Source: an uncultured Flavobacteriales bacterium
Lineage (GTDB): Bacteria; Bacteroidota; Bacteroidia; Flavobacteriales_G; Salibacteraceae
NCBI GenBank assembly: GCA_943788775.1
Contig: CALSRO010000005.1
Span: 124,001-188,000 of the forward strand
Direction: 5' to 3'
DNA: 64,000 nucleotides
Below are positions 26,059-37,141 of this stretch, in pieces. The translations under genes were made by a program, and so were the position numbers. The notes under the pieces are model-generated. The model saw only the letters and a program-made list of their open reading frames with translations, did not search any database and was not told the origin of the DNA. Numbering within the stretch: the stretch's first letter is position 1; every line of letters begins with the position of its first letter.

Positions 26059-26202
26059 TACACTATAGAAATATACCAGCGCACAGGCTCATTAGTGAAG
26101 CTACAGAAGCTGATGGGTCATTCAAGCCTGAATGTATCCTTAACTTATTTAAGGGGCTTAGAGGTGGCTGAATTAACCGAGGAGGATATGCCTAAGGTTT
26201 AG
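26059..26202 (+). pseudogene. Tyrosine recombinase/integrase, C-terminal remnant (left)
   Basis: A frame of 47 codons ending at TAG 26202 encodes the end of a phage-type integrase: QRTGSLVKLQKLMGHSSLNV then SLTYLRGLEVAELTEEDMPK. It contains the family's L-M-G-H-S-S box and the Tyr nucleophile region (LTYLRGL). The upstream part was replaced by the IS3 end, with no start codon left. It marks the left end of the accessory island and is in the opposite orientation to the right-hand remnant. Confidence 0.72.
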
Positions 26203-26260: not shown

Positions 26261-26416
26261 CTTTTTGACTCAAAAACACTCAAAAAACGTCAATTATCCC
26301 TCAAAATCGACTAAATCCTGAAAGTTAAAATCTAAGGTGTCGAATCACCTCAGGGGGAGGGTTGTTTTAAATCGGTTTTTTGGTTTGGTCAGGGTTTCAA
26401 GGGTATAGTATAACCC
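26261..26416. repeat. Island repeat R1
   Basis: First of four related ~155 bp copies. Landmarks are CTCAAAAtcgactaaATCCTGAAAG-type left arm, an inner hairpin (CTAAGGTG, loop TCGAAT, CACCTCAG), GGTTGTTTTAAATCGG, and a right end GTTTCAAGGGTATAGTATAA followed by CCC. It fills most of the 300 bp gene-free gap before the DUF4177 gene. Confidence 0.75.
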
Positions 26417-26957: not shown

Positions 26958-27027
26958 AATCCTGTTCTTTCAATGCAGTAAAGGGTAGTATTTGGTAACC
27001 TAGATATGTATTAGTAAGGGGTGTTAT
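26958..27027. repeat. Island repeat S1
   Basis: A ~70 bp sequence also present at 36058-36128. Shared blocks include TTTCAATG, AGTAAAGGGTAGTATT and TAGTAAGGGGTGTTAT; I estimate near 88% identity by eye. In this copy the end runs into a hairpin (TAAGGGGTGT, loop TATTG, ACACCCTTA with one bulged G). Confidence 0.75.
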
Positions 27028-29382: not shown

Positions 29383-29555
29383 CTGGTTTGATAGCAGAGC
29401 ATTATAAAATCGTCCTTGAGTTTTTAGAGAGCTAATTAGGTTGGTATATCAGCGAAGCGAAAAGAGAAACTGAACAGAATGGAACACCCTGATTTCAAGT
29501 CTGACTATTATGCTTGGATGGAAAACTTAAAGGACTAAACCAATAAATTAATCAT

Positions 29556-30032
29556 ATGCTTTACCTCAAAAAAATAATAGCATTCATTGTCTTCTTTGGC
29601 GGATTAGGTGGAGTGCTGTTTTTTATAGTACATGTTTATCAAGGGGATATTAATGGCCTAGATGAGTGGTTTGATTTGTCAGTATTATTAATACCATCTA
29701 TATCAGGAGTAATTTATGTCATTTCCACCAAATTTGGCGATGCAGTGTTTCCAGACGTCATAAATACTTACCAAGAAAATCAGACACTCAAAAAACAGAT
29801 TAAGCAGAAGGAATCGGAAGAGCAAAAAGCTCGGGCGGAGAGAAGAATGGAGAAATTACGCTATTTGACAGACCAAATAATAATCACCAATGCCCTAAGA
29901 GGTGACGATGACACTGAGACTGCCAAGTATATATTACTCAATAATTACAAAGAGAAAATTGAGTCAATTGAGGCAGGTTTAGACGAGGATAGAGATGAAA
30001 TGATATGTCGACATAAAGGCAGGTCAGTTTGA
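29556..30032 (+). CDS. Hypothetical protein with two transmembrane helices and a coiled coil
   Basis: A 158-residue protein with two hydrophobic segments (IIAFIVFFGGLGGVLFFIVH and LSVLLIPSISGVIYVIST) in the first 60 residues, followed by a long charged coiled coil (QTLKKQIKQKESEEQKARAE) and a helical cytoplasmic end. No family recognised. The upstream 170 bp hold only a short codon remnant (ends 29537) without a start. Confidence 0.6.
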   Translation: MLYLKKIIAFIVFFGGLGGVLFFIVHVYQGDINGLDEWFDLSVLLIPSISGVIYVISTKFGDAVFPDVINTYQENQTLKKQIKQKESEEQKARAERRMEKLRYLTDQIIITNALRGDDDTETAKYILLNNYKEKIESIEAGLDEDRDEMICRHKGRSV

Positions 30033-30130
30033 ATGTCATGGAACTATTGAACTCGGTATCAAGATTACGTCCAGGACGCTAAATGTTGATGCACTCTTTG
30101 AAAGTCCCGATATATATTTGATTTACAATT

Positions 30131-30559
30131 ATGCCAATCGCAATAGAACTCGTCAATCTTTTAATTCCTAAGGATGCAGTCGCCAAAAAGTACCTCGGTG
30201 GAGAGAGTCAGTTCATACAGGACTTTAACATCAATGATTCCAATAATCGTCATTCTCAAGATGATGAACTATTCAGTATTGCTGCCATGAATGCCGATGA
30301 ATATGATATTGATGCTCTAAAAAGTAGAGGGCTTGAATTCAACAGCGAAGCCTCGTCCTCGAATGATTTCGTAATTTGTTCTCGCTATGGAGGATTCTAT
30401 TGGAATGTGGATTGGATTGAAGGAAATTATATGTTTATCTGGCATAAAAGGGCTACTCAGAGTAAAGTAGAAAGGGCCATTCATATTGAAACTAAAATGA
30501 CCATGGATAAGATTGCAGAAATGGTCGAGGAAAATCCAACATTTCTAGACTCGTTCTAA
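30131..30559 (+). CDS. Hypothetical protein
   Basis: A 142-residue soluble protein rich in acidic residues. It has no signal peptide or membrane segment. The ATG at 30131 lies in another frame inside a 50-codon start-less remnant (30009-30170), which suggests that the gene arrived next to, or over, a decayed neighbour. The aromatic stretch GGFYWNVDWIEGNYMFIWHK is its most distinctive feature. No family recognised. Confidence 0.55.
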   Translation: MPIAIELVNLLIPKDAVAKKYLGGESQFIQDFNINDSNNRHSQDDELFSIAAMNADEYDIDALKSRGLEFNSEASSSNDFVICSRYGGFYWNVDWIEGNYMFIWHKRATQSKVERAIHIETKMTMDKIAEMVEENPTFLDSF

Positions 30560-30673
30560 AATGATTTGAAGAATGCTGTTGGATGAAATAGGATACTCGC
30601 CTTTTGGCGGTCTTAAATAGCATCAATTATACCCGCCCTGAGTAAAGGAGAAATGATTAATTAAAAGCTCTGG

Positions 30674-31187
30674 ATGACACGCAGAATAATTGAGAGAGGA
30701 GGCAAGACATACAGGGTTCTAGATGGAACCTCTTCCGATAGTCTTTATTTTTTTGACCGTGGTGTAGTCAGGCTGAGAAAAGGAGATAATTATCAAGGAG
30801 CTTATGAGGACTTCACATCTGCCATTAATCTTGACCCGAATTTTGCTGATGCCTATGTGAATAGGGCAATTACATATCGGTGTCTCAATAAACGCCAAGA
30901 GGCATATGATGACGTGAGCTAAAGCACTAGAGTTAGAGCCCTTAAACACGGCAGCACTTTTTAATAGAGGCTACATGTACGGTCAGCAGGAGATGTTTCA
31001 GGAGTCATTAACTCAGATGGATGCCGTAATTAAGCTCGACCCTACGCATGAAAAGGCCATATTCTACCGAGGGATAGCAAAGGTCAATTTAGACGATGAA
31101 GCAGGAGCTTGTGAGGACTGGAAAAAGGCGGTTGAATTGGGTTTTGAAGACATTCACGGTATAATTGACGAGCATTGTAAGGGCTGA
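30674..31187 (+). pseudogene. Tetratricopeptide-repeat protein with one-base frameshift
   Basis: Two frames together encode a ~170-residue TPR protein: DRGVVRLRKGDNYQGAYEDF and AYVNRAITYRCLNKRQEAYD in the first, NRGYMYGQQEMFQESLTQMD and AIFYRGIAKVNLDDEAGACE in the second. They join near 30917, where removing one T restores V-S-K-A-L-E-L-E-P-L-N. As written, the product stops after 82 residues. Protein-protein interaction is the general role of such repeats. Confidence 0.7.
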
Positions 31188-34714: not shown

Positions 34715-34996
34715 TTAGTCATCAGAACCTAGAAGACACCTGCTGTCTTGGTTTTGGGCTAATAATCTGTCTAATGGATTGACAATTTTTTGCAATTCAC
34801 GGGTCGATACGTGGGTGTAAATAGCTGTTGTTTCTATCGATTCGTACCCAACCATTGTTTGTACCAATCGCAAGTCAGTTCCGTGATCAATCAAGTGTGG
34901 TGTAAAACTATTTCTTCGCATGTTTGGTGTAGCTTTCTTTATTCCTGCTTTGCGCACAATTTGACCTAAATTAGCACTTCTGGAACACCCAAAAAC
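34715..34996 (-). pseudogene. Tyrosine recombinase (XerC/D- or integron-integrase-like), C-terminal remnant (right)
   Basis: A frame open from about 34996 down to 34715 encodes the last ~93 residues of a tyrosine recombinase: SRSANLGQIVRKAGIKKATP, then HLIDHGTDLRLVQTMVGYES, then IYTHVSTRELQKIVNPLDRL. The catalytic Tyr (AIYTHVS) is present. The first catalytic Arg region reads NMRRNSFTPH where H-x-L-R-H-S-F is expected, and the preceding domains are missing beyond a stop codon upstream. It is inactive as it stands. Confidence 0.75.
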
Positions 34997-36057: not shown

Positions 36058-36128
36058 AATCCTATTTCTTTCAATGTAGTAAAGGGTAGTATTCGTTAAC
36101 CCAGATATGTGGTAGTAAGGGGTGTTAT
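36058..36128. repeat. Island repeat S2
   Basis: Second copy of the ~70 bp S repeat (first at 26958-27027), in the same orientation and 9.1 kb away. Both are followed by different sequence, so the right border of the repeat is at GGGGTGTTAT. Confidence 0.75.
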
Positions 36129-36276: not shown

Positions 36277-36307
36277 GGTTTACACCTTCACAAATTTCTT
36301 GTAAACC
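36277..36307. promoter_or_regulatory. Inverted repeat upstream of the HTH gene (distal)
   Basis: GGTTTACA (36277-36284) and TGTAAACC (36300-36307) are perfect complements around 15 bp. It lies 38 bp before the start of the HTH gene. The same GTTTACA/TGTAAAC words border the insertion in R4. Confidence 0.4.
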
Positions 36308-36316
36308 AGGTAATTA

Positions 36317-36345
36317 TATAAGTGAACGCTTAAAATTCACTTATA
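36317..36345. promoter_or_regulatory. Perfect inverted repeat touching the HTH gene start codon
   Basis: TATAAGTGAA (36317-36326) and TTCACTTATA (36336-36345) are perfect complements around 9 bp, and the second arm ends directly before the ATG at 36346. A protein bound here would cover the start codon region and the likely transcription start. Confidence 0.55.
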
Positions 36346-36795
36346 ATGTCAAGAACAAGTTGGTCAGATGACGACCTGGAGAAGCTGTCTAGGAAGAAGA
36401 ACCATAGGGTAAGATACAACGGACATAATTACATCTGGGAGCATCGTCTAAAGGGTAATAAATGGGAGAAACATAGTATCGACTGCTACGCTGAGTATCG
36501 AAAACCATTACATGAAATTCATTACTGGACATACAATTACGGAAAAGAACTGTCTGAAAGACAATCAAAACAGGATAGTTTACACTACCGTGAACTGAAG
36601 CGATATCTATCAATCACGGCTAGAATGGTAAGGATTAGAGAAAATCCTAAACTGAAGACAAGGGATAAGATTAGAATGGTAATGAAGACTATGCCTAAGA
36701 AAACCGCAGTTGGGATAGCTGAACTGTTAAATATATCTAGGCAGATGGTCCACAAGCATCAGGTTGAAATATTAAGGGGTAATACATCAAACTGA
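36346..36795 (+). CDS. Small basic DNA-binding protein with C-terminal helix-turn-helix
   Basis: A 149-residue, strongly basic protein without signal or membrane segment. The N-terminal half is rich in Arg, Lys, Tyr and Trp (HNYIWEHRLKGNKWEKHSID). The last third is helical and ends in a likely helix-turn-helix (KKTAVGIAELLNISRQMVHK). I do not recognise a family. Two inverted repeats precede it (one touching its ATG), and three 11 bp-spaced direct repeats begin 21 bp after its stop. This is the arrangement of an autoregulated initiator, excisionase or copy-control protein; function is inferred only from layout. Confidence 0.65.
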   Translation: MSRTSWSDDDLEKLSRKKNHRVRYNGHNYIWEHRLKGNKWEKHSIDCYAEYRKPLHEIHYWTYNYGKELSERQSKQDSLHYRELKRYLSITARMVRIRENPKLKTRDKIRMVMKTMPKKTAVGIAELLNISRQMVHKHQVEILRGNTSN

Positions 36796-36816
36796 CATCG
36801 TCATTGAGGGTAAATT

Positions 36817-36846
36817 AACTGTCTCATAACTGTCTGAAAACTGTCC
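36817..36846. repeat. Three iteron-like direct repeats, 11 bp period
   Basis: AACTGTCT at 36817 and 36828 and AACTGTCC at 36839 start exactly 11 bp apart, about one helical turn, so a protein could bind all three on the same DNA face. They follow the HTH gene by 21 bp. Confidence 0.6.
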
Positions 36847-36947
36847 AAAACGATGTTTTTTGTACTTTTCGAGCCGTATAGCGTGTTCCTTCTATGTTTG
36901 ATTATTGCCTCTGTTTTTAGCGAAAGTTGGTGGAGCAAAAAGGTGAT

Positions 36948-36968
36948 TGATTGTTTTTTAAACAATCA
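36948..36968. other. Hairpin between the iterons and the tRNA gene
   Basis: TGATTGTTT (36948-36956) and AAACAATCA (36960-36968) pair perfectly over 9 bp around three T residues. It is A/T rich and lacks a following T-run. No gene is visible between 36796 and the terminator at 37026. Confidence 0.45.
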
Positions 36969-37025
36969 TGAAACCTAGTCGTACCAACACTTGCAATAAA
37001 ATTAAGACGACCTCTGGCTCATAAT

Positions 37026-37063
37026 AAAAAACCCCCAACGCTATCAAAACGATGAGGGTTTTA
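37026..37063 (-). terminator. Intrinsic terminator of the tRNA gene
   Basis: Read on the minus strand, AAAACCCTCATCG pairs with CGTTGGGGGTTTT around a short loop and continues into a six-T run. It begins about 5 bp beyond the 3' end of the tRNA. Confidence 0.7.
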
Positions 37064-37067
37064 TTCG

Positions 37068-37141
37068 TGGTCCCACCTGGGCTCGAACCAGGGACCACCT
37101 GATTATGAGTCAGGTGCTCTAACCAACTGAGCTATAGGACC
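37068..37141 (-). tRNA. tRNA with CAU anticodon (Met elongator or lysidine-modified Ile2)
   Basis: A 74 nt cloverleaf on the minus strand: acceptor stem GGTCCTA/TGGGACC, D-arm GCTCAGTTGGTTAGAGC, anticodon stem CCTGA/TCAGG with loop CTCATAA, T-arm around GGTTCGAGCC and discriminator A. The CCA end is not encoded. CAU is shared by Met and Ile2 tRNAs, and I cannot decide between them by eye. Its 3' end faces the accessory island, the usual position of an integrase attachment site. Confidence 0.9.

Follow-up and report, generated by a model that had tools for sequence, protein, structure and literature searches.

tRNA islands with arm-type repeats, and with integrase promoters overlapped by the integrase's own recombination sites, are already known. 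The 10K island of Riemerella anatipestifer is a genomic island with a tyrosine recombinase that is integrated in tRNA-Arg (PMC6764341). The islands described here resemble those of the 10K type in that the integrase adjoins the tRNA gene, direct repeats are found at both ends and the cargo lies in between. Unlike them, they use two tRNA targets (Met and Asn) and have a conserved HTH gene at the far end as well as two plus three phased repeats. In the KplE1 prophage (IntS/TorI) the recombination sites overlap the integrase gene, and the integrase represses its own expression (PMC2951348). As in KplE1, where the gene for the recombination directionality factor (RDF) is separate, the integrase is transcribed away from attL with the recombination sites over its promoter region. 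Yet the present HTH protein matches no excisionase family, the sequence and the spacing of the repeats differ, and self-repression of the integrase is here only proposed.

RDFs are typically small and basic, often have a winged HTH and can double as transcriptional regulators, and in ICEMlSym R7A the RDF gene is located away from int (PMC11963761). The present system is like IntS/RdfS of that element in having several putative P/arm-type repeats in attP, and RdfS is likewise a basic HTH protein, small in its case, which controls excision and is not encoded beside int. Whereas RdfS has 89 aa and is HTH_17-like, our HTH protein varies between 149 and 171 aa across copies and has an extra N-terminal domain, and a role in excision is for this protein a candidate one.

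The locus lies in a window of 64,000 nucleotides, the whole stretch of DNA that was analysed, from an uncultured Flavobacteriales bacterium. All coordinates below refer to this window unless another locus is named, and the features are as follows.

26062–26202, + strand: remnant of the cognate integrase, 46 residues from the C-terminus, 93% identical to residues 309–354 of the intact integrase
36277–36307: palindrome 1, GGTTTACA-N15-TGTAAACC, a candidate operator for the HTH gene
36317–36345: palindrome 2, perfect 10-bp arms, directly before the ATG
36346–36795, + strand: HTH gene, 149 aa, candidate excisionase/regulator, with the HTH in the C-terminal part (residues ~105–147)
36796–37066: attR arm, non-coding and conserved, with a perfect palindrome of 9-bp arms (36948–36968) and a terminator before the tRNA 3' end
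36817–36846, + strand: three AACTGTC repeats with 11-bp spacing, proposed integrase arm-type sites on the attR side
37064–37112, − strand: att core, the 3' half of tRNA-Met up to the anticodon arm (49 bp, exact recurrence)
37067–37141, − strand: tRNA-Met(CAT) (ARAGORN, Rfam), the integration target

We consider it reasonably probable that this locus represents attR of a genomic island targeted to tRNA genes, in which the AACTGTC repeats (iterons) bind the integrase and the HTH protein serves as RDF and/or regulator of the element. An otherwise unexplained layout of gene plus repeats can thereby be read as a defined attachment site to which an integrase, a core and a set of arms belong, and an unnamed protein family gains a candidate function.

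The HTH gene is the last gene in a family of tRNA-integrated islands within an uncultured Flavobacteriales genus. Two complete islands were found, one of 16.7 kb at tRNA-Met (G012:C3, L052) and one of 7.0 kb at tRNA-Asn (G018:C21, L023). The order of elements is a copy of the tRNA 3' half, two AACTGTC repeats, the tyrosine recombinase, cargo, the HTH gene, three AACTGTC repeats and the tRNA. At the far end the tRNA 3' half is followed by ~60 bp and then by AACTGTCTAA(G/T)AACTGTCT directly at the GTG start of the integrase, while at the HTH end the HTH gene is followed by AACTGTCTCATAACTGTCTGAAAACTGTC, a conserved arm of ~220 bp and the tRNA. The att repeats are exact over 49 bp (Met, G012) and 32 bp (Asn, G018), and the 49-bp core of the window recurs exactly in two other places, the far end of the island in G012 and the inner junction in G020. 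Only two genes are common to both complete islands, the integrase gene, of which a fragment is shared as well, and the HTH gene; no conjugation genes were recognised in either island.

In the island copies with a downstream flank, the HTH gene is convergent to tRNA-Met or tRNA-Asn and ends ~270 bp from the tRNA 3' end. The flanking tRNA of G020:C10 is a 3' half only, and the order there is HTH gene, arm, half tRNA, iterons and intact integrase, i.e., a tandem. An unoccupied tRNA-Met beside its native terminator was found in G014, on a contig that stops within the tRNA gene. The same terminator lies outside attL in G012, and neither int nor the HTH gene was found in the G014 genome. The HTH unit is 96–97% identical between the window and G020 as compared to ~70% for the neighbouring chromosome, and the islands have therefore moved recently between species of this uncultured genus. 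Judged by sequence comparison, the island, its att cores, the linkage between iterons and integrase and the horizontal movement are all well established. The preliminary description of the window had expected a recombination module at the tRNA-proximal end of the island, and in this it was right.

The cognate integrase of the relatives is a tyrosine recombinase of 354 aa that matches Pfam Phage_integrase above the cut-off. Integrases that are 96–98% identical are inserted in both tRNA-Met and tRNA-Asn (L023 11876/18849, L052 998/17649 and L053 8596/13332), and the anticodon arms of these two tRNAs agree (CTGATTAnnAGTCA) save at the anticodon. Such near-identical integrases on two tRNA genes give a handle on how integrases switch targets. 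As far as our searches reach, this dual use of tRNA-Met and tRNA-Asn is new, as are the element family itself and the unnamed HTH family, including its homologue in a phage. A more distant integrase relative (43%) was seen in the window's own genome (C8, L057 8495–9586), where it lies next to tRNA-Arg and its start is preceded by short repeats of its own.

The three phased repeats of the preliminary description are indeed found at 36817 (AACTGTCT), 36828 (AACTGTCT) and 36839 (AACTGTCC), with a spacing of exactly 11 bp. The phased 7-mer triple occurred in 0/50 shuffles of the island and the iteron pair in 0/100 shuffles of the window; the triple is not due to chance. A scan for AACTGTC-N4-AACTGTC in 13 genomes of the genus gave 28 pairs, six of them directly 5' of an integrase gene, 21 on the HTH side (within a triple or as a pair remaining from one) and one stray. 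Thus 27/28 pairs are found at att sites, while the reversed control pattern occurred once in these 13 genomes. The repeats adjoin the start codon of every cognate integrase and flank the core on both sides, with two on the int side and three on the HTH side. On the HTH side they follow ~20 bp after the stop codon of the HTH gene in all eight island copies having a downstream flank. These right-hand repeats lie ~260 bp from the crossover region, which would be far by comparison with the arm-type sites of lambda.

Diverged integrases were also compared. The G033 integrase (65%) has kept the AACTGTC pair at the same place, and in the ~60% group of another family (G102, G278 and G343, with 54–60% integrases) the pair is kept with a degenerate second repeat, with ACTGCCTCAGTACTGCC at the tRNA end. 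The 47% integrases have ACTGACAG repeats before the gene instead of AACTGTC. No HTH homologue was found in any of the genomes with these diverged 47–65% integrases, and the HTH homologue of the phage Panino (see below) has neither AACTGTC repeats nor a tRNA attachment site beside its gene. Because diverged integrases keep the repeats or co-vary with them where the HTH gene is missing, and the phage homologue occurs without them, the repeats go, to judge by their distribution, with the integrase and not with the HTH gene. Being tied to the integrase, the "iterons" are most likely arm-type sites, and the region 36277–37141 is best read as the attR end. Binding by the integrase is suggested by this linkage together with the known arm-type tyrosine recombinases (PMC11963761; PMC2951348).

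In the mechanism that we propose, the element is a circle that the tyrosine recombinase would insert at the anticodon arm of a tRNA-Met or tRNA-Asn gene, and it would supply its own tRNA 3' half and terminator so that the tRNA gene is restored. The AACTGTC repeats (three here, two on the int side) would serve as arm-type sites for the integrase, and the two on the int side probably also let the integrase repress its own gene. The HTH gene, as the distal gene, would become the immediate upstream neighbour of attP and int once the circle is excised. Its basic product would most likely act as RDF and/or element regulator, and probably regulates its own gene via palindrome 1.

The HTH protein had previously been described as basic and unrecognised. 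The open reading frame and its basic character (pI 10.1; 33 K/R vs. 17 D/E) hold, while a homologue has now been found. The dN/dS ratio of ~0.2–0.3 in all comparisons made shows that it is a real coding gene. The C-terminus gives weak matches to HTH_11 and sigma-r4, all below the family cut-offs. A second copy with 44% identity is present in the same genome, and relatives were identified in five further genomes of the genus and as one relic outside it (G031). No other homologues were found in a class-wide sample (395 genomes) or a phylum-wide sample (395 genomes), and three queries against IMG/VR gave no relative. The sole other homologue found is PANI_CDS0129 of Maribacter phage Panino, a hypothetical protein of 131 aa (31% identity, E 2e-15), which is homologous over nearly the full length and is encoded by the first gene of a rightward operon. 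Panino is a podovirus described as virulent (PMC11590407).

Structure prediction and remote-homology searches, which the preliminary description had proposed, thus gave this one distant phage homologue and no fold match: the full model (pLDDT 73) and the N-terminal domain had no hit at E < 0.001 in the PDB, nor had the full model in BFVD. The models hint at an N-terminus of a β-sheet plus a helix, which is a hint and not evidence as their confidence is moderate (pLDDT 73 and 68). No excisionase family was matched in Pfam, PHROGs or NCBIfam, and with no Xis/RDF family match we do not file the protein as an RDF. RDFs are very diverse as a class, so the missing match weighs little. The earlier suggestion of an excisionase-type layout stands in so far as an excisionase-like role is possible. 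The protein is basic with an HTH-like C-terminus, yet its length is above the typical RDF size.

We regard the HTH proteins as an unnamed and undescribed family of putative DNA-binding proteins that probably control excision or gene expression of the element. The protein is to us the best candidate for the excisionase/regulator, since the integrase and the HTH gene are all that the complete islands have in common, and since it is basic, would be encoded next to attP and upstream of int once the element has excised as a circle, and has a gene that is preceded by a conserved palindrome. Integrase relatives in other families occur without an HTH homologue, and the HTH protein is therefore dispensable for such integrases in general.

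It is possible, though we think it the less probable case, that the HTH protein only regulates transcription, namely its own and perhaps that of cargo or int, with no part in recombination. The sigma-r4/HTH_11-like C-terminus would suit this, as would the Panino homologue, whose gene comes first on the rightward side of a divergent switch; a gene heading an early operon fits a transcription regulator better than an excisionase. Palindrome 1, conserved before the gene, would suit it as well. Two perfect inverted repeats had been reported, one of them ending exactly at the ATG, and both are there: palindrome 1 has 8-bp arms (GGTTTACA 36277–36284 and TGTAAACC 36300–36307) and lies 9 bp upstream of palindrome 2 (TATAAGTGAA 36317–36326 and TTCACTTATA 36336–36345), whose last base adjoins the ATG. 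Conservation with the gene is seen for palindrome 1 (GTTTACA...TGTAAAC), which stands before the HTH gene in 9/9 island copies that were aligned, even where protein identity falls to 44%. It is not seen for palindrome 2, which is restricted to the subgroup of the window (94–100% copies; 9-bp arms in a 66% copy), the whole stretch being missing from the 44% subgroup. When the 150-bp upstream region was shuffled (first order), a perfect 10-bp inverted repeat with a loop of up to 25 turned up in 2% of the shuffles and an 8-bp one in 18%. The palindromes are thus only mildly unusual for such an A/T-rich stretch and by themselves weak evidence. Motifs shared between palindrome 1 and the attachment arms were A/T-rich 7–8-mers only. 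Against a purely regulatory role, the HTH gene is consistently found beside the attachment arm whatever the cargo, and the complete islands have no other RDF candidate in common.

A more specific form of the favoured reading, which we put forward tentatively and think rather unlikely, is a minimal tRNA-island system with no dedicated genes other than an integrase and a new family of two-domain excisionase (β-sheet N-terminus plus HTH) that is shared with a flavobacterial phage, in which cargo modules are exchanged between 117-nt direct repeats of constant direction.

That the HTH gene is no more than accessory cargo, trapped by chance beside the attachment arm, seems doubtful. It is missing from related islands of other genera and families, and its coding region diverges or swaps independently of the flanking arm. 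The first 225 bp of the attR arm are 81–99% identical between copies of different HTH subgroups, whereas the first 390 coding bases of the HTH gene are ~50% identical. The arm thus exceeds most of the gene in conservation, which is what constraint by recombination would lead one to expect, and gene conversion between copies in the same genome (the window and L022, 99%) probably adds to this likeness. Trapped cargo does not, however, agree with the finding that nearly all attR-type ends of the genus carry the HTH gene or a remnant of it while other cargo changes; the exception is G016:C269, on a small contig. In related islands of another family (L067 and L069) the position of the HTH gene at the tRNA end is taken by other genes. 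A structured RNA in the attachment arm was also considered and rejected, as there was no meaningful Rfam match besides the tRNA and the single-strand DNA fold had a z-score of −1.

The preliminary description had viewed the iterons as sites of the HTH protein itself, bound as by an excisionase or copy-control protein, and this we now hold to be quite improbable. The repeats follow the HTH stop codon closely in every island copy with a flank, and the last 60 coding bases of the HTH gene, the DNA of the recognition helix, are 78–85% identical between subgroups against ~50% for the rest of the gene. The repeats nevertheless remain with integrases lacking an HTH partner, and the phage homologue has none beside it. 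Homologues without these sites, which the preliminary description had named as a refutation, do exist for the iterons (Panino) and for palindrome 2 (the 44% group); palindrome 1 is kept in the nine aligned island copies and the iterons in the eight with a downstream flank. An iteron-type replication origin with its initiator on a plasmid-like element, also suggested earlier from phased direct repeats beside a basic HTH gene, is most improbable and was rejected, as the same repeats stand at both island ends beside att cores, no Rep/initiator family was matched and no relative was found among 72,556 plasmids. A fourth AACTGTCTGAAA was noted within the HTH coding region (36548–36559); it is shared by the 94–100% copies and missing from the 44% group.

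In the window copy, attR and the HTH gene are present, while the integrase is reduced to its last 46 residues. No attL iteron pair was found for it, and no intact cognate integrase was found in its own assembly (95% complete). With attL and int lost, the copy is not expected to move alone, and mobility would probably require help in trans. At 34715–34957 the same island also holds the C-terminal end of a different tyrosine recombinase (Pfam Phage_integrase), left over from another insertion. A 63-nt repeat (90%) is present upstream of the HTH gene (36066–36128) and at 26965–27027, and is also seen in relatives.

The island cargo includes a type I restriction system. Direct repeats of ~117–150 nt were observed at 26303, 28269, 34217 and 35134 as well as in L052, L017 and L023, and occur in 7/13 genomes of the genus. 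An integron cassette array with attC-type hairpins was rejected for these repeats, as the 17 copies of the 117-nt repeat gave four predicted pairs, none of them compensatory, and no covarying fold. The repeats separate cargo modules and have the orientation of int and the HTH gene regardless of the direction of the cargo. One multi-gene module is common to the window (29547–31187) and L052 (12085–13783).
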